Below are positions 1,360-50,827 of a DNA stretch of 50,827 nt, piece after piece. The notes under the pieces were generated by a model. It was not told the origin of the DNA, made no database searches, and saw only the letters and a program-made list of their open reading frames with translations. The DNA comes from Chlamydiota bacterium (GTDB lineage: Bacteria > Actinomycetota > Thermoleophilia > Solirubrobacterales > Solirubrobacteraceae): assembly GCA_903970125.1 (NCBI GenBank), contig CAJCHW010000212.1:1-50827 (forward strand). Direction: 5' to 3'. The translations under genes were made by a program, and so were the position numbers. How positions within the stretch are numbered: position 1 is the first letter of the stretch; every line of letters starts with the position of its first letter.

Positions 1360-2496
1360 GTGGCGGTGCGGGCGCGGTCCGGCGGTAAGCTGCCATGCAC
1401 CGTGGACGCGCCAAATGACCCTGTAAACGGCGCTGCATCGCGTCCCAACGGCTTGGCGGCCGAGGCGCCACGGACCGGCGAATTGATCCTGGTGGCCGGC
1501 GGTGCCGGCTACATCGGCTGCGTGCTCGTGCCGCGGCTGCTCGCGCGTGGCTATCGCGTGCGCGTGCTCGACCGCCTCTTGTTCGGCGAGCAGCCAATGG
1601 CCGACTTCCGCGACCGGATCGAGCTCGTCGAGGCCGATGTGCGCGCCGTCCCCCCGGACGCATTCGATGATGTCGATGGCGTCATCAACCTCTCGGGCCT
1701 CTCCAACGATCCCACCGCCGAGTACGACCCCGAGGCCAACTGGCAGATGAACGCAATCGCCTCCGAGGCCCTGGGCGAGGAGTGCGTTCGGCGCGACATC
1801 AAGCGCCTTGTGTTCGCCTCGTCGTGCTCGCTTTACGACGGCCTGCCCCCGGGCATCCACGGCGAGGATGCGCCCGTGCAGCCGCACGCCGCGTACGCCA
1901 CATCCAAGCGCTACGCCGAGCAGGCGCTGATGCGGCTCACCTCCGAGGGCCTGTGCCCCGTGATCCTGCGAAACGGCACCGTCTACGGCTTCAGCCCGCG
2001 GATGCGCTTTGACCTCGTGGTCAACACGTTCGTCAAGGATGCCCTGCTGGCCGGGCATCTGCAGCTGCACGGAGGCGGGTGGATGTGGCGGCCGCTCGTC
2101 GATATCGGCGACTGCGCCGACGCCATGATCGCCGCCTATGAGGCGCCCGCGGACCTCGTTGCAGGCGAGATCTTCAACGTCGTGCACTCCAACTACCAGA
2201 TCCGCGAGCTCGCGATGATAGTGGCCGGCTCGGTTCAGCTCACGGGCCGCGCGGTGGCGCTGGAGGAGGTGCCCCAGCCCACGCTCACCCGCAACTACGA
2301 GTGCGCCAACGCCAAGCTGTCGACAACGCTGGGGTTCATCCCCAGCCGCTCGGTGCTTGAGTCCGTTTCTGACCTGCTTGAGCGGATCGCGCCGGGCGAC
2401 CCAGCCCTGTTGAACGATCCCCGCTGCTACAACATCCGCTGGCTGCAGCTGTCAAACGGCGTGGCTTTGGAGCCGGAGTCATCCCCCGTCCTGTGA
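1360..2496 (+). CDS. NAD-dependent epimerase/dehydratase (extended SDR)
   Basis: The 378-residue product is an extended short-chain dehydrogenase/reductase acting on nucleotide sugars. The NAD-binding GGAGYIG sits near residue 47. The Ser of SSCSLYDG and the YATSK motif supply the catalytic Ser/Tyr/Lys set. The Rossmann motif lies unusually far in, so translation may begin at a later start such as the GTG at 1402 rather than the GTG at 1360. It heads a plus-strand run with rmlD (48-base gap) and rmlC, which suggests a role in making a deoxysugar precursor. It does not carry the TDExYG signature of RmlB, so I do not call it dTDP-glucose 4,6-dehydratase. The exact substrate is unknown. Confidence 0.8.
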   Translation: MAVRARSGGKLPCTVDAPNDPVNGAASRPNGLAAEAPRTGELILVAGGAGYIGCVLVPRLLARGYRVRVLDRLLFGEQPMADFRDRIELVEADVRAVPPDAFDDVDGVINLSGLSNDPTAEYDPEANWQMNAIASEALGEECVRRDIKRLVFASSCSLYDGLPPGIHGEDAPVQPHAAYATSKRYAEQALMRLTSEGLCPVILRNGTVYGFSPRMRFDLVVNTFVKDALLAGHLQLHGGGWMWRPLVDIGDCADAMIAAYEAPADLVAGEIFNVVHSNYQIRELAMIVAGSVQLTGRAVALEEVPQPTLTRNYECANAKLSTTLGFIPSRSVLESVSDLLERIAPGDPALLNDPRCYNIRWLQLSNGVALEPESSPVL

Positions 2497-2544
2497 GCCC
2501 GCAGCAGACGTGAGCCGGCGGAGGGTCCTTCATCGGGCGCGGTC

Positions 2545-3474
2545 ATGCGTGCGCTGATCACCGGCGCAGCCGGCCAACTCGGCACCGATCTCGTGGCGCT
2601 GCTGGGAGACCAGGCGCACGCGTACAGCCACTCAGAGCTCGACATCTCAAGCGACTCGGCAGTCGCGCGCGCGTTTGCCGAGACCGAGCCTGAGGTCGTG
2701 ATCAACTGCGCCGCCTTCCACAACCTGGACGTTTGCGAGCGTGAGCCCGCCAACGCTTTCGCGATCAACGTCGAGGCGGTGCGCCGGCTTGCGGGCCAGG
2801 GAGTGCCTCTCGTGCACGTGTCCACCAACTACGTCTTCGACGGTCGTCGCCCCGAGCCCTACGGCGAGGACGACCTGCCTGCGCCACGGTCGATCTACGC
2901 CGTCTCCAAGCTTGCCGGCGAGTACGCGGCGCTTGCGTACGGGCGCAACGCCCTGGTCGTGCGCACCGCGGGGCTGTACGGACTGTCCGGCAACGCCAGC
3001 AAGGGCGGCAATTTCGTCCAACGCGTGCTCGCTCGCGTGCGCGCGGGCAGCGAGTTGAGCGTGGTCGACGACCAACGCCTCCAGCCGACCTACACCGCCG
3101 ACCTGGCGTCGGCGATCCTGGAGGCGATCGAGGCCAAAGCGCAGGGCATAATCCACCTGACTGCCGGCGGTGCCTGTTCATGGTGGGAGTTCACGCGCGC
3201 AATCATGTCTCACGCTGGACTTGAGGTAGAGGTCGTGCGGGCAAAGACGGTGAACGCGCCGGGGGGCGTCGACAGGCCCCTCAACGGTGTGCTCGCACGC
3301 CCCCGCGCCGACTCGCTGGGGCTTTCACCGCTGCGCTCCTGGGACGAGGCGCTGGCGGACTACATCGATACAGCCGGCCTCGCAAGGGCCCCAGCCTCGC
3401 AAGGGCCCCAGCCAACTGACCAGGCAGCCGACCCAGCCAGTCGACCCAGGCAACTGACCGATTCAACTCAGTAA
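2545..3474 (+). CDS. rmlD: dTDP-4-dehydrorhamnose reductase
   Basis: This 309-residue protein catalyses the last step of dTDP-L-rhamnose synthesis, the NAD(P)H reduction of dTDP-4-keto-L-rhamnose. It starts directly with the cofactor-binding GAAGQLG. STNYVFDG and the catalytic YAVSK follow, then the RTAGLYG segment typical of RmlD. The conserved domain ends near residue 275. The last 30 or so residues are a Pro/Gln/Ala-rich tail encoded by short repeats, including a 17-base tandem duplication. rmlC starts 15 bases downstream, so the two are almost certainly co-transcribed. RmlA and a clear RmlB are not in the window and presumably lie elsewhere. Confidence 0.9.
   Translation: MRALITGAAGQLGTDLVALLGDQAHAYSHSELDISSDSAVARAFAETEPEVVINCAAFHNLDVCEREPANAFAINVEAVRRLAGQGVPLVHVSTNYVFDGRRPEPYGEDDLPAPRSIYAVSKLAGEYAALAYGRNALVVRTAGLYGLSGNASKGGNFVQRVLARVRAGSELSVVDDQRLQPTYTADLASAILEAIEAKAQGIIHLTAGGACSWWEFTRAIMSHAGLEVEVVRAKTVNAPGGVDRPLNGVLARPRADSLGLSPLRSWDEALADYIDTAGLARAPASQGPQPTDQAADPASRPRQLTDSTQ
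3377..3410 (+). repeat. 17-bp perfect tandem duplication in the rmlD tail
   Basis: GCCTCGCAAGGGCCCCA occurs twice in a row (3377-3393 and 3394-3410) within the low-complexity 3' end of rmlD. Because 17 is not a multiple of three, each copy is read in a different frame. Gain or loss of a copy would change the C-terminal tail. Confidence 0.9.
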
Positions 3475-3489
3475 AGGAGACCACACCGC

Positions 3490-4056
3490 ATGCAACGGCT
3501 CGACACCAGGCTGCAAGGCCCGATTTTGCTTGCCCCGCGCGTCTTCGGCGACGAGCGCGGCTTTTTCTGTGAGACCTTCCGGCGCAACGTCTACGCGGAG
3601 CTGGGCATCGGCGAGGAGATGGTCCAGGACAACCACTCGCGCTCGGGCAAGGGGATCCTGCGCGGCATGCACTTCCAGATCGGCAAGGGCGTGGCCAAGC
3701 TCGTGCGCTGTGGCCGTGGCGCGATCTACGACGTCGTGGTCGATGTGCGCCGCGGCTCGCCCACGTTCGGCCAGTGGGAGGGCTTTGAGCTCAACGAGGA
3801 CAACATGCACGTGCTCTATTGCCCCGTCGGATTCGCGCACGGCTTCTGCACGCTCTCAGACGTCGCCGACGTGCTCTACAAGCAGAGTGGCTACTACGCA
3901 GAGGAGACCGAGCGCGGCATCGCCTACGACGACCCCGATGTGGCGATCCAGTGGCCACTGGCACTGGATGCCGTGACCGTCTCCGCGCGCGACGCCCAAG
4001 CGCCGCGACTGGCCGAGATCGCCGACTCGCTGCCGTTTGACTACGCGCCGCTGTAG
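3490..4056 (+). CDS. rmlC: dTDP-4-dehydrorhamnose 3,5-epimerase
   Basis: This 188-residue cupin-fold enzyme epimerises C3 and C5 of dTDP-4-keto-6-deoxyglucose, the step before RmlD. The RmlC hallmarks are present: DERGFFCETF, QDNHSRSGKGILRGMHFQ with the catalytic His, and the FAHGFCTLSD segment. The ATG at 3490 is preceded by AAAGGAG at a good distance. All twelve glutamates are encoded by GAG, the usual habit of this chromosome. The last 16 bases overlap the 3' end of the convergent epimerase gene. Length matches the family, and its place directly after rmlD supports the call. Confidence 0.95.
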   Translation: MQRLDTRLQGPILLAPRVFGDERGFFCETFRRNVYAELGIGEEMVQDNHSRSGKGILRGMHFQIGKGVAKLVRCGRGAIYDVVVDVRRGSPTFGQWEGFELNEDNMHVLYCPVGFAHGFCTLSDVADVLYKQSGYYAEETERGIAYDDPDVAIQWPLALDAVTVSARDAQAPRLAEIADSLPFDYAPL

Positions 4057-4988
4057 GACGAATAGGTGGCCGCGAGCCCCTCTCCCAGGCGCGTCGCAGG
4101 CGCCCAGCCGAGTGCGCTGCGCAGACGTGAGGAGTCCAGGCAGCTGCGCGTCAGCTCACCTGGGCGCAGGGGCTCAAAGACCCTCTCCACTCGCGCCGGC
4201 GCGAGCCCTTGGAGCGTGTCGAGCAGGTCCAGCACGGAGCTTTCCTCGCCTGTGCCCACGTTGAACGTGGTCAGCGAGGCGTCGCTGGGCGCTGCGGCCG
4301 TCACGGCAAGCACAAAGGCGCGTGCGACGTCGGCGACATAGATGTAGTCGCGCGTCTGGTGCCCGTCGCCGAAAACCGTGACCGGCTCCCCACGCCTGAG
4401 CCTTTCGCTGAAGATCGCCACCACGCCGGCCTCGCCGTGGGGATTCTGGCGTGGCCCGTAGACATTGCCAAGGCGCAGGACCACGTTTCCGAGGCCGTGC
4501 AGGCTTCCCCAGGTGCGCACGTATGCCTCGCCGGCAAGCTTGGAGGCGCCGTAAGGCGACAGCGGTTCGGCCCACGTGGACTCCGCGCTTGGCCGCAGGG
4601 CGTGCTCGCCGTAAAGCGCACCGCCCGTGGACGCGAACACCACAGGCGCCCCATGATCCTTGGCCAGATCGACGACGTTGAACGTGCCGACCACGTTCAC
4701 CGAGAGGTCGTGCGCGGGGTCCTTGACGGACGCAGTCACACTCGCCTGTGCCGCCAGGTGGCAGACCGCGGTGGGGCTGAACGCGCCAAAGAGGTCGGCC
4801 AGCGCCTGCCTGTCGACGATGTCTGTCTGCTTGAAACTCGCGCCTTGAGGCACGTTCGCTGGATCGCCGGCCGAGAGGTCGTCGACCACGAGCACCTCGT
4901 CGCCGCATGCCAGGAACGCTTCGGCAACGTGTGAGCCGATAAACCCTGCGCCGCCGGTAACCAAAACGCGCCGTGATTCATCGACCAT
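4041..4988 (-). CDS. UDP-glucose 4-epimerase-like NAD-dependent epimerase
   Basis: This extended SDR (315 residues from the chosen ATG) opens with [13 protein letters not shown], the NAD-binding glycine motif. It has HLAAQASV, a serine/threonine region [10 protein letters not shown], the catalytic YGASK, and the NVYGPRQ and [10 protein letters not shown] motifs of the GalE/WbpP group. Its likely job is inversion at C4 (or a related change) of a UDP-sugar for surface polysaccharide. A GTG at 5055-5057 would add 23 residues; I prefer the ATG at 4986-4988 because the Rossmann motif then begins at the usual distance. Its 3' end overlaps rmlC tail to tail by 16 bases. GalE itself is one possibility; the precise sugar cannot be told. 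Confidence 0.83.
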
Positions 4989-5089
4989 GGCGCTGTCCCG
5001 CGCGCTCAAAACGACCTCAAGGTCCTGCTGCTTGGGTCGCGGGCGGGCATCGGCCACAAGCTACCAACCGGCGATGGGGAGCGACCCGC

Positions 5090-43668: not shown

Positions 43669-44814
43669 CTAGATGCCCAGCAACCGCTCGTACATGCGGT
43701 AGCGCTTGGCCACGCGCGAGCCCATCGCTTCCATGGCCCTGTTCATGGGCGTGTTGGTCTCAAGTATCCAGCCACAAAGACCGTGCTTCTGGGGGGTGCG
43801 CTCGGCGGTGTTGAAGTGCTCGACGTAGAGCAGAGCGGCAACGCCAGTGTGCTGGTACTCCGGCTTGACACCCAGAAAGCCCACGCGAATCCAGGTCATG
43901 ATCTTGGCCTTGCGCAGGAAGTACCACCAGCCCAGGGGCAGGACCTTGCCGTTCATCTTGCGGGCAACCTGGTTTAGGTCGGGGACGGTGATCGCGAGCC
44001 CCACGATCTCGCCCGTGTCCTTGCGCTCGGCCACCATGAACCAGTTCTTGTCAAAGGCAAGCTGGAGTTCCTGCGCGTAGGCATCGAGGTCCTGCTTGGA
44101 GTACGGCACGAACCCCCAGTGATCTGACCACGCGGCGTTGTAGACCTCGGCAAAGCCATCGAGATCGCGGCGCAAATGCAAGCGGCTCATGCGCCGCAGC
44201 TGGATCCCGTGCTCGCTTTCGGCCTTCTCGGCCAGCTCGAAGAGCACGGGCAAGGTGTTGTTGCGGTCCGACACGTCGATCTCCCACACGAACATGTCCA
44301 CGGCCTTGGCCATGCCGTCCTGCTCAAGCAGCCGCTGATAGTAGGGCGGCTGCCACGGTTCGAGGATGAGTGCGGGCGCGTCGAAGCCCTCGACGAGCAC
44401 GCCGGCGCCGTCGTTGACCGTGAACTCCGCTGGACCGACCATGCGCTCGCACTGGCGTGCGCCGAGCCACTGTGCGGCGGCGTCGAGCAGCGCGTGCACG
44501 ACCTCCTGGTCCTCCTCGAACTCCAGAAAGCCAAACCAGCCCCAGACGGCGCCGTGGTACTCGTTGTAGGAGTGGTCGATGTGCGCGGTGATCCGCCCCA
44601 CCACGCGGGCTGAGTCACCGTCCGTGCGCCACGCCAGAAAGTACTCCGCCTCGCCGTGCTTGAAGAAGGCGTTCATGCGGCGGTTGAGAAACAGCCGCCG
44701 CTCGAGCTTCAGCGGTGGCACCCACTGGGGGTGGTTAGCATGCAGGCGGAAGGGCAGGTCGATGAATCGCCGTAGATCCCGCCTGCCGGAGACAGCTCTC
44801 ACCTGCACACTCAC
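43669..44814 (-). CDS. YghO-like GNAT acyltransferase (bacterial ceramide synthase-like candidate)
   Basis: This 381-residue protein has the FIDLPFRLHANHPQWVPPL opening and WGWFGFLEFEEDQEV, followed by GPAEFTVNDGAGVLVEGFD and a C-terminal acetyltransferase-like half with GFLGVKPEYQHTGVAALLY. This is the YghO-type GNAT family. Members next to serine palmitoyltransferase genes have been identified as bacterial ceramide synthases that N-acylate the long-chain base. Here the divergent neighbour, 16 bases away, encodes an alpha-oxoamine synthase, the enzyme type that would make that base. A ceramide role is therefore a reasoned inference, not something the sequence proves. The start is GTG at 44814. 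Confidence 0.75.
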   Translation of the reverse strand: MSVQVRAVSGRRDLRRFIDLPFRLHANHPQWVPPLKLERRLFLNRRMNAFFKHGEAEYFLAWRTDGDSARVVGRITAHIDHSYNEYHGAVWGWFGFLEFEEDQEVVHALLDAAAQWLGARQCERMVGPAEFTVNDGAGVLVEGFDAPALILEPWQPPYYQRLLEQDGMAKAVDMFVWEIDVSDRNNTLPVLFELAEKAESEHGIQLRRMSRLHLRRDLDGFAEVYNAAWSDHWGFVPYSKQDLDAYAQELQLAFDKNWFMVAERKDTGEIVGLAITVPDLNQVARKMNGKVLPLGWWYFLRKAKIMTWIRVGFLGVKPEYQHTGVAALLYVEHFNTAERTPQKHGLCGWILETNTPMNRAMEAMGSRVAKRYRMYERLLGI

Positions 44815-44830
44815 GGATCGGGCACCTTAC

Positions 44831-46240
44831 ATGCCAACAACCGCTGCCGCCTCCACCCCACAGGCTCCAACTGCGCCTGCACCCTCCGCGACCTCCGCAA
44901 AGCTCCCGGACGTGTTCGCGAAGGTCCACGGCCACGAGCGCGAAGCGGTTCTGACCGCCGCACGGGCCGCGGGCATTCTGCCGTACTGGCACGTGGTCAG
45001 CTCTCCCGCGCGCGGGGTCGTGGAGATGGAGGGGGCGCAGCGGATCATGCTGGGCTCAAACAACTACCTGGGCCTCACAGACGACCCGCGGGTGATCGCG
45101 GGGGCGCAGCAGGCCCTGTATGACTACGGCACAGGCTTGACGGGCTCGCGCCTGCTCAACGGGACAACGCCGCTGCACCTGGAACTCGAGCGCGAGCTGG
45201 CTCAGTGGATGGGCACCGAGGACGCACTCGTGTTCACCACGGGCCACCAGGCCAACGTGGGCACGCTGGGGACGCTGCTCACCGCCGCTGACACGGTGAT
45301 CGTGGACTCCGGCGACCACGCATCGATCCTCGACGGTTGCATCATCTCGCGCGCCAAGCTCCGCCCCTTTCGCCACAACCGCCTGGACAAGCTCGAGAAG
45401 ATGCTTGACCGGGCAGGCGCCGACGGCGGCGGCGTGCTCGTGGTCGTCGACGGGGTGTTCTCGATGGAGGGCGACATCGCGCCCCTGGCCGACATATGCG
45501 AGCTGTGCGAGCGCTACGGCGCCCGCTTGATGGTCGATGAGGCACACGGCGTAGGCGTGCTCGGGGCCCGCGGCGCCGGCTGCTCGGAGCTTCTGGGAGT
45601 CGAGACGCGCGTGGACCTGCGCATGGGCACGTTCTCCAAATCGCTCGCCTCATGTGGGGGCTTCATCGCGGGCCAGTCGGACGTGATCGATTACCTGCGC
45701 ATCTACTCGCGCCCCTTCCTCTTTACGGCCTCCGGTGTGCCCGCCGCCGTTGGTGCGGCGCTGGCGGCGCTGCGGGTCATGCGGTCCAACGACGGTCCCA
45801 AGCTGTTCGAAAGGCTGCTTGACAACGCGTGGTACCTGCACGACGGGCTGCACGAACTGGGATTCGCGGTGGTGGCGCCACAGGCGTTGCCGGCTTCAGG
45901 GCTCGGTGGTGCCGGCGCCGCCGGTGGCAACAGCGCGGCCAAAGCACCGGGCGTCCGCGTCGATGCCGCGGGTGCAGCCACCATCGTCACGCCAATCGTC
46001 CCAGTGCTCGTGGGCGACGACTGGAAAGCCGGCTTGCTCTGGCGCGCGCTGTATGACGCAGGGGTGTTCGTCAACACCGCCATCCACCCCAGCGTCCCGC
46101 CCGGTGGTGCTTTACTGCGAACGAGCGTGATGGCCAGCCACGACCGCGCCACGCTGTCGCGCGCACTTGAGATCTTCGCCGCAATCAAGGATCGCTTCGA
46201 GGCCGAGCACGGACCCCTGCCGGCCGACGCAGGACACTGA
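44831..46240 (+). CDS. Alpha-oxoamine synthase (serine palmitoyltransferase / KBL / BioF type)
   Basis: This 469-residue PLP enzyme condenses an amino acid with an acyl-CoA. GSNNYLGLTDDPRV, TGSRLLNGTTPLHLELE, VFTTGHQANVG, DSGDHASILDGC, MVDEAHGVGVLG and the PLP-lysine motif TFSKSLASCGGF near residue 269 are all in place. The family includes BioF, glycine C-acetyltransferase and serine palmitoyltransferase. The neighbouring YghO-like GNAT protein favours a serine palmitoyltransferase-like role, while no biotin gene is nearby. The ATG at 44831 precedes a Pro/Ala/Thr-rich lead; a frame upstream is open but overlaps the divergent gene. A Gly/Ala-rich insert (about 358-372) is unusual. Confidence 0.88.
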   Translation: MPTTAAASTPQAPTAPAPSATSAKLPDVFAKVHGHEREAVLTAARAAGILPYWHVVSSPARGVVEMEGAQRIMLGSNNYLGLTDDPRVIAGAQQALYDYGTGLTGSRLLNGTTPLHLELERELAQWMGTEDALVFTTGHQANVGTLGTLLTAADTVIVDSGDHASILDGCIISRAKLRPFRHNRLDKLEKMLDRAGADGGGVLVVVDGVFSMEGDIAPLADICELCERYGARLMVDEAHGVGVLGARGAGCSELLGVETRVDLRMGTFSKSLASCGGFIAGQSDVIDYLRIYSRPFLFTASGVPAAVGAALAALRVMRSNDGPKLFERLLDNAWYLHDGLHELGFAVVAPQALPASGLGGAGAAGGNSAAKAPGVRVDAAGAATIVTPIVPVLVGDDWKAGLLWRALYDAGVFVNTAIHPSVPPGGALLRTSVMASHDRATLSRALEIFAAIKDRFEAEHGPLPADAGH

Positions 46241-46607
46241 CCGGCGCCGACCACTGGCGAGCATCGCGGTCGATCGCCGGGCCGGTGTCGCCGGGCCGGT
46301 GAGCCGTCCCGCTCTTGTCCGTTTTTTCACAAGCGGGTCACAACTACGAAAAACGCGCTGAGAGCGCACGAACGAGTGGCCGCGCAGTTGACCGCTCGCG
46401 CCCGCTTGCATAGGTTCGTCAATGAGCGTTGCGCCTGTCTCACCGGTGTCGCTCGCAACCCCCAGCTGGCGCGTAGGGCGTGCGTTGAGGCGCTCCCGCG
46501 ACTAGGTGGTTGGCACCGGGTGGGTCCAGCGGACGCGTTTCTCGTCAATACCCAAGGGATATGTGCGTCGGCTCTCACCGACGGCACTTCAGGGGAGTGA
46601 ACTCAAA
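46241..46607 (+). promoter_or_regulatory. 367-bp intergenic region with a sigma-70-type promoter
   Basis: The region holds TTGACC (46388-46393), a 17-base gap and TAGGTT (46411-46416), the best-matching promoter in the window. It predicts a start near 46423 and a leader of about 185 bases before the ATG at 46608. Upstream, a repeated CGCCGGGCCGGTG pair and a CCCGCT...AGCGGG inverted repeat with a T-run in its loop follow the oxoamine synthase gene. I see no tRNA and no riboswitch I can name. A short open frame (46376-46600) looks like chance. Confidence 0.55.
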
Positions 46608-47126
46608 ATGACCGCGATAGCGACGATAGCCCCTGCCGATTCTCAGCACACAGATTCGGCCGGCCTCCAGCCCGCAACGGCCAGCGACCATCGCCAGCCC
46701 ATAACCAACGTTCACGGGGAAGATCGGTCCCAGTCGTCCTGTGGAGGCGACTCCGAGCGCCAGTACATGCGTGCTCTTGAGCGCGCCAATGAGGTGCGAA
46801 TTGCACGCGCAGAGCTCAAGCGCAAAGTGGCCGCGGGCACGGTCGATGTTGCCCAGATCGTCGTCAACTGCCCCTGGGAGGCCGAGAGCATGGCTGTCGC
46901 GGACCTGCTCACGAGCCAGCGCCGCTGGGGCCACACACGCTGTCGCAAGCTGCTCGCCCGGGTGCCAATCTCAGAGCGAAAGACACTGGGCTCGATGACC
47001 GAGCGCCAGCGCTCCACGCTTGTGGCGCTTTTGGCCGATGCCGGCGCGTGCGACTCCTCGAGGTTTGTGGGGGCCAGTGTCACCAGCCCCCGCCTAACCA
47101 GCTCGCCTGAACCAGCCCTCGCCTGA
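46608..47126 (+). CDS. Actinobacterial IHF-like DNA-binding protein
   Basis: The conserved core (about residues 55-145) reads ALERANEVRIARAELKRKVA, CPWEAESMAVADLLTSQRR, WGHTRCRKLLARV and GSMTERQRSTLVALL. It corresponds to the helical domain and helix-two-turn-helix of the mycobacterial integration host factor family, which bends DNA and shapes the nucleoid. The first 50 residues are polar and unstructured, longer than in mycobacterial proteins. AGGGGAG lies ten bases before the ATG at 46608. The last 33 bases overlap the convergent exporter gene, and a 16-base repeat spans the stop. Confidence 0.85.
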   Translation: MTAIATIAPADSQHTDSAGLQPATASDHRQPITNVHGEDRSQSSCGGDSERQYMRALERANEVRIARAELKRKVAAGTVDVAQIVVNCPWEAESMAVADLLTSQRRWGHTRCRKLLARVPISERKTLGSMTERQRSTLVALLADAGACDSSRFVGASVTSPRLTSSPEPALA

Positions 47127-49823
47127 ACCACGGGCAAGCCGCGGCAGCGATTTGCTGCCGCGGCTGACTGCCATCCGCTCGGTGAGCAGGAGCACGGAGG
47201 GCAGCACGAGCACGACGCCCACGAGCGACACCCCCAGATCCACCAGCGTGGCCAGTCCGAACTCCTGCAGCATGCGCACCTGGGAGAGAACAAGCACGGC
47301 AAAGCCGGCAATCGCGGTCACCGCCGAGGCCGCCACCGCCGCGCCCGTGCGTCTGAAGGTGGTGCGCAGCGCCTCAGCGGGGTCGCACCCCGCGAGGCGC
47401 TCCTGGCGGTAGCGCTCGGCCAGCAGCACACTCAGCTCCGTCGATATCGCGACGACCAAGCACGCCAGCCCACCGGACATCGGGTTGAGCGTGATGTGCG
47501 TGACAAAGAGCAACAGCCCCGACCAGCCGCTGGCGAGGATCACGGGTAATGCCGCGGCGACGGTCCTTCCAAGGTCGCCACCAAAAGCGCAAAGGAGGAT
47601 CACGGTGACCACGGCGAGGCTGATCAGCAGCGCCAGCGCGCGCTGGGATGTTGATGCGACATCGGAATCCGCCTGTGCTCCCAGGACCGCCAATCCCACC
47701 AGCCGAGCGCTCACGCCCCGCGGCGGATCAAGCAGCGAGCGCATCGTTTCGATCACCCGCTGCTGACGATCGAGTGAAATCAGGCGGATCCCGAACGCCA
47801 ACGTGGCGTAGTGCCTGTTAGCCGTGATCACGTTCTGGGCGAAGTACCGCGGGATCACCGCCAGCAGGCCGTCGATCTCTCTCGCCGACAGCTTGCCCTG
47901 CACCGACGCCCCTTCGCCTGTGCTTGATTCGTTGAACAGATCCGACAGCGAGAACGCGGGGCAGAGCGTGGCGGTGCTGCACGCCGGCCCAGCGCTTGAG
48001 GTAGCCCCGCTGTAGCCAAAGCGTTTGAGCACAGCGTTCTGGTAGGACGCCATCCACGCCACCACCGACGGCTTGGTCAGGTCGTCGCCGGTGAGGAGCA
48101 GGTCGATCTGTCCTCCCGAGCCCGTGTCATGCTCAAGCACCTTGAGGTTTTCCAGCGACTGCAGATTCTGGGGGACTAGCTTTGCCAGTTCGGTTTGCAC
48201 GGGCGTCTGCGTGGACAGCCCCCACCCCGCCGCCGCAAGCACCACGCCCACGCCCAGCACCGTCGCGGGGCGTCTGAATGCACCCCCCAAGGCACCTGTC
48301 TGCACAAGCGCGGGCAGCCGATTCTCACGCACAAGCTCGCCCGCCCCACGCCAGGCCGCCGCGAGCGTTGCACCCACGGTGCTTGCAGCGAAGCCCCCCG
48401 CGCTTGCCCATCTGCGCGGAGATCTGCGTGGAGCGCTCCCACGCGCGTGCCACAGCACGATCGCCGCCGAGCCCGCGGTCAACGCGCAGACAAACGCGAT
48501 CGCTATCCCCACGATGAGCAGCTCGGCAAATCCCCGCACCAAGGGCACGGGCGAGACGAGCAGCCCAAGCATCGCTCCTGCGCTCGCGAGCGCAGCGATT
48601 GCAACCGTGGGTGCTCCCGCAACCGCGGCCCTGCGCACCGCACGCGCCATATCGCCACCCTCGTCGGCGAGCTCCTCGTTGGTGCGCGATTGCAGCTGGA
48701 TGGCATAGTCCACGGACAGTCCCACGAGCACAGGGAGCACCGCCAGCGAGCCAAGGGTCAGCGAGCCGCCCACCAATGCCAGCGCTCCGAAAGTAAGCGC
48801 GCACGCCGCCAGTGCGAGCGCCAGTGCAAGCAGCGACGGTCGCGCTACAACGACCAGGCCGAGCACGCCGGCCATCACCACCACAACCGCCACCAGGAGC
48901 CACTCGATCGACCGCGTCAGCGAGCTTGTCAAGTCGGACACGATCACGGGCTCGCCCGTGACCAGGTAGCGCTCGCCGTGTTGCAGATGCCACTGCCCCA
49001 TCGCCACCGCTTCGCGTATGAGCCCTATTGCGGCCGTGCGCTGAGCTTCTGAGAGGCCCGCCTTCAGGCGCACCGAGACGAGCGCGGAGTCACGACTTGG
49101 GAACAGGTACGCGAAGCGTCCCTTCGGCGTCCCCGCACGCTCCGTCCGCGCAAACACGAGTGCGTTCACGAATTCGGCGTTGTTGAGCGCCGGTTCGGAC
49201 GTAAGCCCGTACTGGACCGCCAGCGCCGCCACTTCAGCGGCGTAAGCGCTCAGCGTCGCCTGGCGCGCCTGCTTGCCAAGCGCAAGCGCTTCTGGTTCCG
49301 AGAGACCACGCGCGAGCGCCTGCGCCACCACCGTCCGCTGCGCCGTGTCCCCCTGGGTTTCGCTGTCATGGCGCTCGCGCTTCAGCTGCCCATCGATCTC
49401 CGACGCCGCCTCGTTGATGAAAGTGCCCGGACCAAGCACCACCTTGACAGCGCCCGTGCGCTCCAGGCGGCCGCACGGTCCCTGACGCCCACCCTCCTTT
49501 GCCAGTGCCGCCTGCGGGACCCTTCCCGACAGGCAGCCCTCCAAGCCCAGCAGCCGCTCCAGATCCGAGCTCTGGAGCAGCTGCTGCAGGTTGCCCTGTA
49601 CGAGCACCTCGATCGGCTCTTCACCGAACCGCTCATAGAAGGTCTGCGTGGCGCGGTAGTCCGCGCTTGAGCTGCTCACGAACGTGTCCGTGGCGCCGCT
49701 CGGCGCGAGGGTGAGCGCGAGCACGGCGCCCACGAGCGCGAGCGCAGCCACCGCCACCACCACCAGCCTCGGTCGTGCTGCAGCCGCGCCGGCCACAGCA
49801 CCGAACAGTCCCCTGGCGCTCAC
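47094..49823 (-). CDS. MMPL/RND-superfamily transporter
   Basis: This 909-residue membrane protein has the RND duplication. Helix 1 is near residues 20-40, a large extracytoplasmic loop to about 290, then a bundle of helices with LPVLVGLSVDYAIQLQSR (the conserved Asp-Tyr of the proton relay). A second large loop (about 530-740) is followed by a second bundle in which the equivalent site reads LVVAISTELSVLLAERY. MMPL/HpnN-like proteins export lipids such as hopanoids, mycolates or glycolipids. The second relay site lacks the Asp, as in some family members. It starts at GTG 49823 and its end overlaps the IHF-like gene. A lipid cargo is an inference. Confidence 0.9.
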   Translation of the reverse strand: MSARGLFGAVAGAAAARPRLVVVAVAALALVGAVLALTLAPSGATDTFVSSSSADYRATQTFYERFGEEPIEVLVQGNLQQLLQSSDLERLLGLEGCLSGRVPQAALAKEGGRQGPCGRLERTGAVKVVLGPGTFINEAASEIDGQLKRERHDSETQGDTAQRTVVAQALARGLSEPEALALGKQARQATLSAYAAEVAALAVQYGLTSEPALNNAEFVNALVFARTERAGTPKGRFAYLFPSRDSALVSVRLKAGLSEAQRTAAIGLIREAVAMGQWHLQHGERYLVTGEPVIVSDLTSSLTRSIEWLLVAVVVVMAGVLGLVVVARPSLLALALALAACALTFGALALVGGSLTLGSLAVLPVLVGLSVDYAIQLQSRTNEELADEGGDMARAVRRAAVAGAPTVAIAALASAGAMLGLLVSPVPLVRGFAELLIVGIAIAFVCALTAGSAAIVLWHARGSAPRRSPRRWASAGGFAASTVGATLAAAWRGAGELVRENRLPALVQTGALGGAFRRPATVLGVGVVLAAAGWGLSTQTPVQTELAKLVPQNLQSLENLKVLEHDTGSGGQIDLLLTGDDLTKPSVVAWMASYQNAVLKRFGYSGATSSAGPACSTATLCPAFSLSDLFNESSTGEGASVQGKLSAREIDGLLAVIPRYFAQNVITANRHYATLAFGIRLISLDRQQRVIETMRSLLDPPRGVSARLVGLAVLGAQADSDVASTSQRALALLISLAVVTVILLCAFGGDLGRTVAAALPVILASGWSGLLLFVTHITLNPMSGGLACLVVAISTELSVLLAERYRQERLAGCDPAEALRTTFRRTGAAVAASAVTAIAGFAVLVLSQVRMLQEFGLATLVDLGVSLVGVVLVLPSVLLLTERMAVSRGSKSLPRLARGSGEGWFRRAG
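47102..47130 (+). repeat. 16-bp-period tandem repeat across the IHF-like stop codon
   Basis: CTCGCCTGAACCA occurs at 47102-47114 and again at 47118-47130. The second copy contains the TGA of the IHF-like gene, and the whole lies inside the 3' end of the convergent MMPL gene. Confidence 0.85.
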
Positions 49824-49994
49824 GGCGCTGAGGCTAATGGACGCCAGCGACGGCGCGGACGTCCGTTGTGGTCGTGGCGTCTGTGACTAAAGCCCTTGCC
49901 TGCCGCTGCCGAAGCATGCCGCGTCGGCCGTCTTGAGTAAATGGACTCCCGGCTCGCAGCCCAAACAACCCGGCACATCGGAGCGCGAACGGAA

Positions 49995-50827
49995 ATGGTC
50001 AAACCGAGGAGATTGCAACGCAGCCGCGTCAGCGCGGTGCTCGCGCTGAGCACGATCAGCGCCATGGTCGGCGTTGCCTATCTGGCTCCCAGCGGCAGCG
50101 ATGCCGCCACCGAAAGGGAATCCACCAAGGTCACCTTTGAAGCCGAATGCGAGCTTGCCCCCGGCACGTTCGGCGTGGAAAAGGGTCCGACCAAGATGAA
50201 GTTCACGACCTACGCCTCAAACCCCAAGATCATCCGCGAAAACGAAGAAGTCACGTTCACCGAAGTGCACGCCGAAATCGCGGTGCCCAAGGAATGGAGT
50301 GAAGAGCTCTACGGCACCCTGGGTGACGAATTCGCCACCGGCAAGGCGACGTACATGGAAACGAACGTCACCGGCGGTTCACAGACGCTCCTCAACAGCT
50401 CGAAGTCCAGCGAATTCCCGGAAGGCGCACCGTACTCGGCCGAACTGAAGTCCAAATCGGAACAACTGACGCTGAAGGTGCCATCGGGCAAACACGCCAA
50501 TGGCAAGACCAGCTACACGCTCGGTCCAATCAAGGCCGGCAAGGCCGGCGAAACGTTCAAGCTCGAACTGGGCACCAAGAAGGGCTGGGAAGGCACCACG
50601 GACAAGCCCACCCAGGGCATCCAGTCGGTGATGACCGGCTACAAAAACAGCTCGGAAACGACCAAGGGAGAACTCTTCGGGGTCAAGATCGAAAACACCC
50701 CCACGGCGTGCACAGCGCCGGCGGGCGTCGTGCTTGGCAAGTGGACGATCCAGCCCGAAGAAGTCGTCACCACCACCTCCACCCATACCGACGTGGTCAC
50801 GTCAACCGCAGTCGTGACCGTGACCTC
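49995..50827 (+). CDS. Predicted secreted protein of unknown function (C-terminus cut by window edge)
   Basis: The frame opens at the ATG at 49995 and runs without a stop to the window edge, giving 277 full codons. The N-terminus is basic (MVKPRRLQRSRVS), then hydrophobic (AVLALSTISAMVGVAYLA), with a likely signal cleavage after SDAA near residue 38. The mature part is Lys/Thr/Glu/Gly-rich and predicted beta-sheet (VTFEAECELAPGTF, KSEQLTLKVPSG), followed by a Thr/Val run near the edge. I recognise no domain. Of 28 Glu codons I count 26 GAA and 2 GAG, the reverse of ordinary genes here. A weak CGGAG lies upstream. It is divergent from the MMPL gene across a 171-base gap. Confidence 0.7.
   Translation, partial: MVKPRRLQRSRVSAVLALSTISAMVGVAYLAPSGSDAATERESTKVTFEAECELAPGTFGVEKGPTKMKFTTYASNPKIIRENEEVTFTEVHAEIAVPKEWSEELYGTLGDEFATGKATYMETNVTGGSQTLLNSSKSSEFPEGAPYSAELKSKSEQLTLKVPSGKHANGKTSYTLGPIKAGKAGETFKLELGTKKGWEGTTDKPTQGIQSVMTGYKNSSETTKGELFGVKIENTPTACTAPAGVVLGKWTIQPEEVVTTTSTHTDVVTSTAVVTVT

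Follow-up and report, generated by a model that had tools for sequence, protein, structure and literature searches.

The stretch of DNA analysed here (hereafter the window) spans 50,827 nucleotides of contig CAJCHW010000212.1 (C212), part of a 2.66-Mb metagenome-assembled genome (MAG) that is 87% complete. It carries two divergently oriented genes, encoding an alpha-oxoamine synthase (AOS) and a GNAT-family protein, whose start codons lie 16 bases apart. An earlier note on this DNA had described this arrangement, and both open reading frames (ORFs) were found at the coordinates given below, together with their neighbours.

43669..44814, minus strand: GNAT protein of 381 amino acids (GTG start at 44814, end at 43669); homologue of bCerS (bacterial ceramide synthase) and YghO with a predicted tandem GNAT fold; proposed long-chain-base N-acyltransferase.
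44815..44830, no strand: intergenic region of 16 bp separating the divergent AOS and GNAT start codons; adjacent divergent layout in 113 of 140 genomes of the order.
44831..46240, plus strand: AOS of 469 amino acids (ATG start at 44831); falls in the Spt-like (serine palmitoyltransferase-like) clade; proposed serine palmitoyltransferase-like enzyme.
46506..47126, plus strand: integration-host-factor-like (mIHF) gene, scoring 46.9 bits to the actinobacterial integration host factor model against a curated cut-off of 60; conserved neighbour, function probably unrelated.
47094..49823, minus strand: MMPL/HAE3-type membrane transporter; conserved neighbour gene, which closes a run of MlaE-like, ATPase-like and Mce-like genes in the relative G037 (L101, L087).

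The AOS ORF as called mechanically begins at 44579, upstream of the ATG at 44831. Pfam assigned the AOS to Aminotran_1_2 (E = 2.9e-53) and the GNAT protein, weakly, to Acetyltransf_1 (E = 3.9e-07). The window AOS also contains a Gly/Ala-rich stretch of ~30 residues (near residues 352-384; window positions 45884-45982), which disrupts alignments to its relatives.

Phylogenetic analysis separated the AOS of the order Solirubrobacterales from the enzymes of primary metabolism. The order sequences fell in a clade (support 100/98) with Spt from Bacteroidota and Sphingomonas and with the AOS of GNAT-bearing gene clusters, which also takes in AOS from E. coli, Pseudomonas, Roseomonas, Rubrobacter, Streptomyces, and Nonomuraea; three Kbl and two BioF sequences lay outside it. 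Five sequences in this tree are labelled Spt, either from a PDB entry (Sphingobacterium), from scores over NCBI cut-offs (Sphingomonas, Parabacteroides), or by similarity (Bacteroides, Prevotella). The tree is a reduced one, with 10 of 25 order sequences, and omits four sequences on long branches (Acidisoma, E. coli BioF, a Streptomyces KS-type enzyme, and the MAG's own BioF paralogue). A fuller tree with these four gave a comparable clade (91/97), and there E. coli BioF joined the Kbl sequences, a join flagged as possibly false. Approximately unbiased (AU) tests rejected a union of the order AOS with Kbl (p = 0.0015) and with BioF (p = 0.0014). The grouping with BioF or glycine C-acetyltransferase, which the earlier note had named as the outcome that would count against it, was thus checked; the tree placed the AOS with Spt, and the AU tests rejected both unions.

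Profile comparisons agreed in ranking. Against PDB profiles, the AOS scored highest with Spt (411 and 333-346 bits), followed by a BioF/Kbl dual enzyme (323-324), Kbl (286-309), cysteate acyltransferase (272), and enzymes named BioF (up to 234). Each of the nine order AOS scanned matched Spt, Kbl, and BioF models, with the best E value going to Spt in all nine. A GSRxLNGT motif is invariant in nine of nine order AOS and present in the five Spt-labelled sequences, and all three Kbl sequences read SVRFICGT at this position. The window AOS further carries the pyridoxal phosphate lysine and the HAS, DEAH, and TFSKS motifs, which we take to be catalytic and for the most part common to all alpha-oxoamine synthases.

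The GNAT protein is a full-length homologue of bCerS/YghO-type proteins from Spt clusters, in line with the "YghO-like" label in the earlier note. It shares 30.6-36.3% identity over 98-99% of the query with proteins from Sphingomonas, Roseomonas, Acidisoma, E. coli, Pseudomonas, Rubrobacter, Streptomyces, and Nonomuraea, and an alignment of 11 sequences, built without the misframed L079 and a Bacteroides sequence, contains 27 invariant columns. In the GNAT tree, the window protein joins the GNATs of actinobacterial operons at 90/87 (not starred). A PDB sequence search returned a single, insignificant match, and the fold comparison is based on VIA-align. We propose that this protein N-acylates a long-chain base.

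Both genes are nearly invariant across Solirubrobacterales. AOS was present in 140 of the 140 order genomes examined and GNAT in 139, with the two adjacent and divergent in 113 and divergent within 6 kb in a further 6. The first 61 genomes, the window's MAG included, all encode both proteins; in 59 of them the genes are adjacent and divergent, their match ends separated by a median of 25 bp. Since it is kept in 59 of 61 genomes, this arrangement is not due to chance. The two exceptions have the genes divergent and 3.5 kb apart (G047) or 137 kb apart (G041). Among 79 further genomes, AOS was found in 79 and GNAT in 78 (one genome lacks it); the pair is adjacent and divergent in 54, divergent within 6 kb in 5, far apart on one contig in 4, and on different contigs in 15, the last of which may reflect assembly breaks. 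Linkage is nevertheless typical rather than obligatory, because genus g36 has the two genes mostly unlinked. In some order genomes (e.g., G005, G165, and G210), a gene is represented only by fragments.

A search of 230 genomes of the class, each at least 90% complete except the window's MAG, set this pattern in context. Within the order, AOS was detected in 121 of 121 genomes and GNAT in 120. Outside it (109 genomes; thresholds of E ≤ 1e-70 for AOS and E ≤ 1e-40 for GNAT), both genes were detected in five (G130 and G150-G153), GNAT alone in one (G154), and neither in the remainder. The AOS threshold was meant to exclude BioF and Kbl paralogues, so that weaker AOS may exist, for instance in G154, and weak GNAT matches in G080 (3e-14) and G101 (1e-3) were counted as absent. 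Co-occurrence of the two genes in these 109 genomes was significant (Fisher p = 5e-8, with weak matches treated as absent and genomes that are not independent samples). The AOS of G130 and G150-G153 are 46-51% identical and are not among the sequences in the tree. In named species genomes, GNAT matched 12 loci, nine titled Solirubrobacter, Solirubrobacteraceae, or Solirubrobacterales and three titled only "Actinobacteria bacterium" or "bacterium"; the nearest relative, 90% identical and from a bog MAG, is among these three. The titles of relatives carrying homologues are actinobacterial, in keeping with the lineage suggested in the earlier note, and on the strength of these titles we assign the window to Solirubrobacterales.

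Beyond the class, a GNAT profile search (E ≤ 1e-15) retrieved 60 of 396 genomes of the phylum, 25 from the order, 3 from elsewhere in the class, and 32 from other classes. An AOS scoring >300 bits to the Rubrobacter AOS was found in 16 of these 32 genomes and in 2 of 32 genomes without GNAT (Fisher p = 1.8e-4); the 300-bit line was picked after seeing the scores, and the GNAT-less genomes were taken by handle number. The AOS-GNAT association outside the class is strong but not exclusive.

Clusters combining an AOS, a GNAT homologue, and a short-chain dehydrogenase/reductase (SDR) occur in Sphingomonas, E. coli, Pseudomonas veronii, Rubrobacter, and Streptomyces, and provide the closest points of comparison. 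Like the Caulobacter/Sphingomonas ceramide pathway (Spt, bCerS, and the reductase CerR, with an acyl carrier protein (ACP)), the window has an Spt-like AOS together with a GNAT of the bCerS family, which shares 33% identity over its length with the Sphingomonas GNAT. It differs in its divergent layout with 16-bp spacing and in that no linked CerR-like, ACP, acyl-ligase, or LptF-like gene was found. The E. coli yghO locus comprises AOS, ACP, an epimerase-like SDR, a fatty acyl-AMP ligase, and YghO, and has a counterpart in P. veronii, where the ACP- and ligase-sized neighbours are annotated as hypothetical. In these loci, yghO likewise reads in the direction leading away from the AOS genes, whereas Solirubrobacterales keep only AOS and GNAT side by side. 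The plasmid operons of Rubrobacter radiotolerans and Streptomyces NBC_01001 encode AOS 40% and 37% identical and GNATs 35% and 34% identical to those of the window; unlike the window pair, they are co-directional and consist of three genes (AOS-GNAT-SDR), a CerR-like SDR included. Lastly, Bacteroidota Spt (Sphingobacterium 3a2b, the best PDB match; Parabacteroides L125) resembles the window AOS, which is 39-42% identical to three Bacteroidales sequences, but no GNAT is annotated beside the AOS in the ~7-kb stretches L125 and L127.

Protein families, the phylogenetic place of the AOS, linkage, and co-occurrence are direct observations; from them we infer substrates, product, order of steps, and any export. 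Taken together, they make it probable that the pair encodes the enzymes for the opening reaction and the acylation in a bacterial sphingolipid-type pathway, with an N-acyl 3-oxo long-chain base (oxo-ceramide) as the most likely product. In this scheme, the AOS would catalyse the condensation of a long-chain acyl thioester with an amino acid, serine being the likeliest, and the bCerS-family tandem GNAT would then N-acylate the resulting 3-oxo long-chain base to a 3-oxo-ceramide; the keto group, if reduced at all, would be reduced by a reductase encoded elsewhere. The earlier note had read the pair as possibly making a ceramide-type backbone. This interpretation is partly supported and likely right in outline: the place of the AOS in the tree and the homology of the GNAT speak for it, and the failure to identify a CerR orthologue and AOS scores under the Spt cut-offs speak against.

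The observations that weigh against this reading concern the reductive step, the exact identity of the AOS, and the breadth of the GNAT family. In the Rubrobacter and Streptomyces operons, a CerR-like epimerase-type SDR lies downstream of GNAT, and CerR is described as a periplasmic NDUFA9 homologue (PMC11087976). A BLAST search (E of 1e-6) of 17 AOS-side neighbourhoods and the window, on simple gene calls that may miss short genes such as ACP, turned up no CerR-like, ACP, or acyl-AMP-ligase gene close to the pair, consistent with the earlier remark that CerR is not adjacent. Within the window, the SDR matches are weak (45-49 bits) and located ~39 kb from the pair, at 1360-5057. A homologue elsewhere in the genome, which the earlier note had suggested looking for, was searched for, and no orthologue could be identified: with the Rubrobacter SDR as query against the 61 order genomes, the best E value per genome ranged from 6.8e-34 to 1.5e-6, without a uniform orthologue among the many extended SDRs that these genomes encode. 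In an SDR tree containing 23 order sequences (drawn from 20 fetched stretches, mostly best matches), a single one, L170 of the window's MAG, was placed within the CerR set (90/87, on a long branch). L170-type SDRs match in 51 of 61 relatives (E ≤ 1e-25), but are absent from pair-bearing genera (6/6 genomes of g34, 2/2 of g35, 13/14 of g36, and 3/3 of g39), and families f5 and f7, which are without the pair, have weaker homologues (E of 1e-27 to 1e-41). With a distribution that does not follow the AOS-GNAT pair, L170 was rejected as a demonstrated CerR. Genes adjoining the L170-type gene in L197-L199 look, by eye, like chaperonin, Mrp, or ferredoxin genes.

As for the AOS, NCBIfam ranked Spt models first, but all below their curated cut-offs (379 of 640, 376 of 500, and 309 of 670 bits). 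The AOS of Sphingomonas, E. coli, and Parabacteroides pass these cut-offs, and those of the Rubrobacter and Streptomyces operons fail them too. The tree does not settle the position of the order AOS inside the Spt-like clade: they stand beside a proteobacterial group at 74/85 (not starred), and a union with the Bacteroidota or the actinobacterial group was not rejected (p = 0.31 and 0.24). The same clade holds an AOS from a Priestia plasmid to which no function is assigned. For the GNAT, another actinobacterial family, f15, gave no AOS match at E ≤ 1e-50 in any of its seven GNAT-bearing genomes (G252, G291, G331, G341, G359, G386, and G421), as did two other GNAT-bearing genomes (G286 and G533), and Bacteroides and Chloroflexota records have GNAT with no AOS annotated nearby. 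The f15, Bacteroides, and Chloroflexota cases indicate that the GNAT family is not tied to the ceramide pathway alone, and it may have another role in f15.

These points bear differently on the alternative explanations. The pair could make a relative of sphingolipids that is not derived from serine, with the AOS taking alanine, glycine, cysteate, or a different amino acid as its substrate and the GNAT N-acylating the aminoketone to yield a 1-deoxy-ceramide, a sulfonolipid-like, or some other product. Scores below the Spt cut-offs and a tree that does not fix the place of the AOS within the Spt-like clade would fit such a pathway, as would the cysteate-C-fatty acyltransferase among the PDB relatives (272 bits) and the 1-deoxysphingolipids reported in a Black Sea study (PMC11334938), but the best profile matches are serine palmitoyltransferases, and we regard this explanation as fairly unlikely. 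Alternatively, an AOS that is Spt-like by descent could contribute to a different product, for example a secondary metabolite or an acyl group attached to the wall; the tandem GNAT would then acetylate or acylate a polar amine. The sequence similarity of the GNAT is to proteins from Spt clusters, its one PDB match being insignificant, and near-universal, mostly syntenic conservation across the order favours a core function, which makes this second alternative improbable.

An assignment to primary metabolism, with the AOS acting as BioF or Kbl beside a GNAT unrelated to it, draws on the small score differences between models: the best BioF and Kbl models reach 335 bits (cut-off 426) and 346 bits (cut-off 460), ~10% under the best Spt model at 379, and a second Kbl model scores 298 of 493 bits, so that none reaches its cut-off. 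This assignment is rejected by the AU tests, the motif is unlike that of Kbl, and the biotin role is already filled, since the same MAG has a separate BioF paralogue above the curated cut-off (461 versus 426 bits). We therefore consider it very improbable.

A bolder version of the sphingolipid reading is a core pathway across the order that lacks CerR and ends at an unreduced 3-oxo-ceramide, or at a ceramide whose reduction falls to an unrelated enzyme; the conserved neighbouring MMPL/mce-type transporter might move the product. Oxidised ceramide is reported to build up without CerR (PMC11087976), so a pathway ending at oxo-ceramide is chemically possible; we nonetheless hold this version as doubtful. 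If true, sphingolipid-type lipids would belong to the basic membrane components of a large soil group of monoderm lineage.

The genomic surroundings of the pair are also conserved. On the GNAT side, relatives share a VWA (CoxE) gene as well as genes read by eye as MoxR-like and ABC-type, and on the AOS side they share the mIHF-like and MMPL genes, the former in 17 of 18 fetched stretches and the latter in 17 of 17 AOS-side neighbourhoods. Further out, a metH-like gene (read from the N-terminal sequence) is present in the two relatives listed, and MlaE-like genes lie beyond MMPL in several. In G037 (L101:597-14607), with the AOS-GNAT pair close by, MMPL shares a run with an ATPase-sized gene and two MlaE-like permeases, and a metH-like gene comes next. 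Six long proteins sit between MMPL and the MlaE-like genes, and the one tested matches the MCE model below its cut-off (125 versus 140.5 bits). The earlier note had placed the pair beside an MMPL lipid exporter. MMPL is indeed a conserved neighbour, but a role as dedicated exporter of this product is not supported: it belongs to a conserved syntenic block, the mIHF-like gene is conserved as well, and synteny by itself may account for the linkage. That an MMPL/mce-type system transports the product is a guess.

On the evidence of gene content, a sphingolipid-type lipid is probably made by Solirubrobacterales. The earlier note had held that the pair would be a notable extension of bacterial sphingolipid synthesis. 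Some Gram-positives are already known to carry ceramide genes; conservation across an order is what is new. Among the matches listed in literature searches, none concerned sphingolipids in Solirubrobacter or Thermoleophilia, which is weak evidence of absence, as broad queries matched thousands of unrelated papers. If the reading is correct, sphingolipid-type lipids would be a core trait of an order rather than a Gram-positive rarity. Solirubrobacterales are common in soil, and soil ceramides could then originate from them. The order also offers a clean test of the third, reductive step, with two of the three enzymes nearly invariant and the third not recognisable, and the claim is directly testable because cultured hosts with the pair exist (e.g., Solirubrobacter soli DSM 22325).

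Several further observations concern related loci. The Priestia megaterium plasmid (CP109762.1, L128:953-2167) encodes an Spt-like AOS scoring 522 of 640 bits to the Spt-CFB model, above the window AOS, and no GNAT is annotated in the 3-kb stretch read around it. Beyond MMPL, at the contig end of the window (49941-50827), lies a gene whose product matches no NCBIfam model; in relatives, MlaF/MlaE- or Mce-like genes occupy this place. In G008, from the window's genus, the corresponding block (L102:10870-16073) contains two MlaE-like genes, an ATPase-sized gene, and MMPL. It lacks the long Mce-like proteins, subunits that may have been lost here in the genus. Two Rubrobacter-family genomes (G259 and G287) are not among the GNAT matches and gave no AOS match. 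The four genomes of this family with GNAT in the phylum sample all have AOS, GNAT, and SDR in a row (for one, identical to R. radiotolerans, the SDR was missed by the gene caller and taken from the annotated record). An LTA-synthase-family (lipoteichoic acid synthase) gene lies near the operon in three of these four loci (L140, L142, and L145; none seen in L144; the R. radiotolerans plasmid operon is L092:6704-12296), and might attach a ceramide head group.

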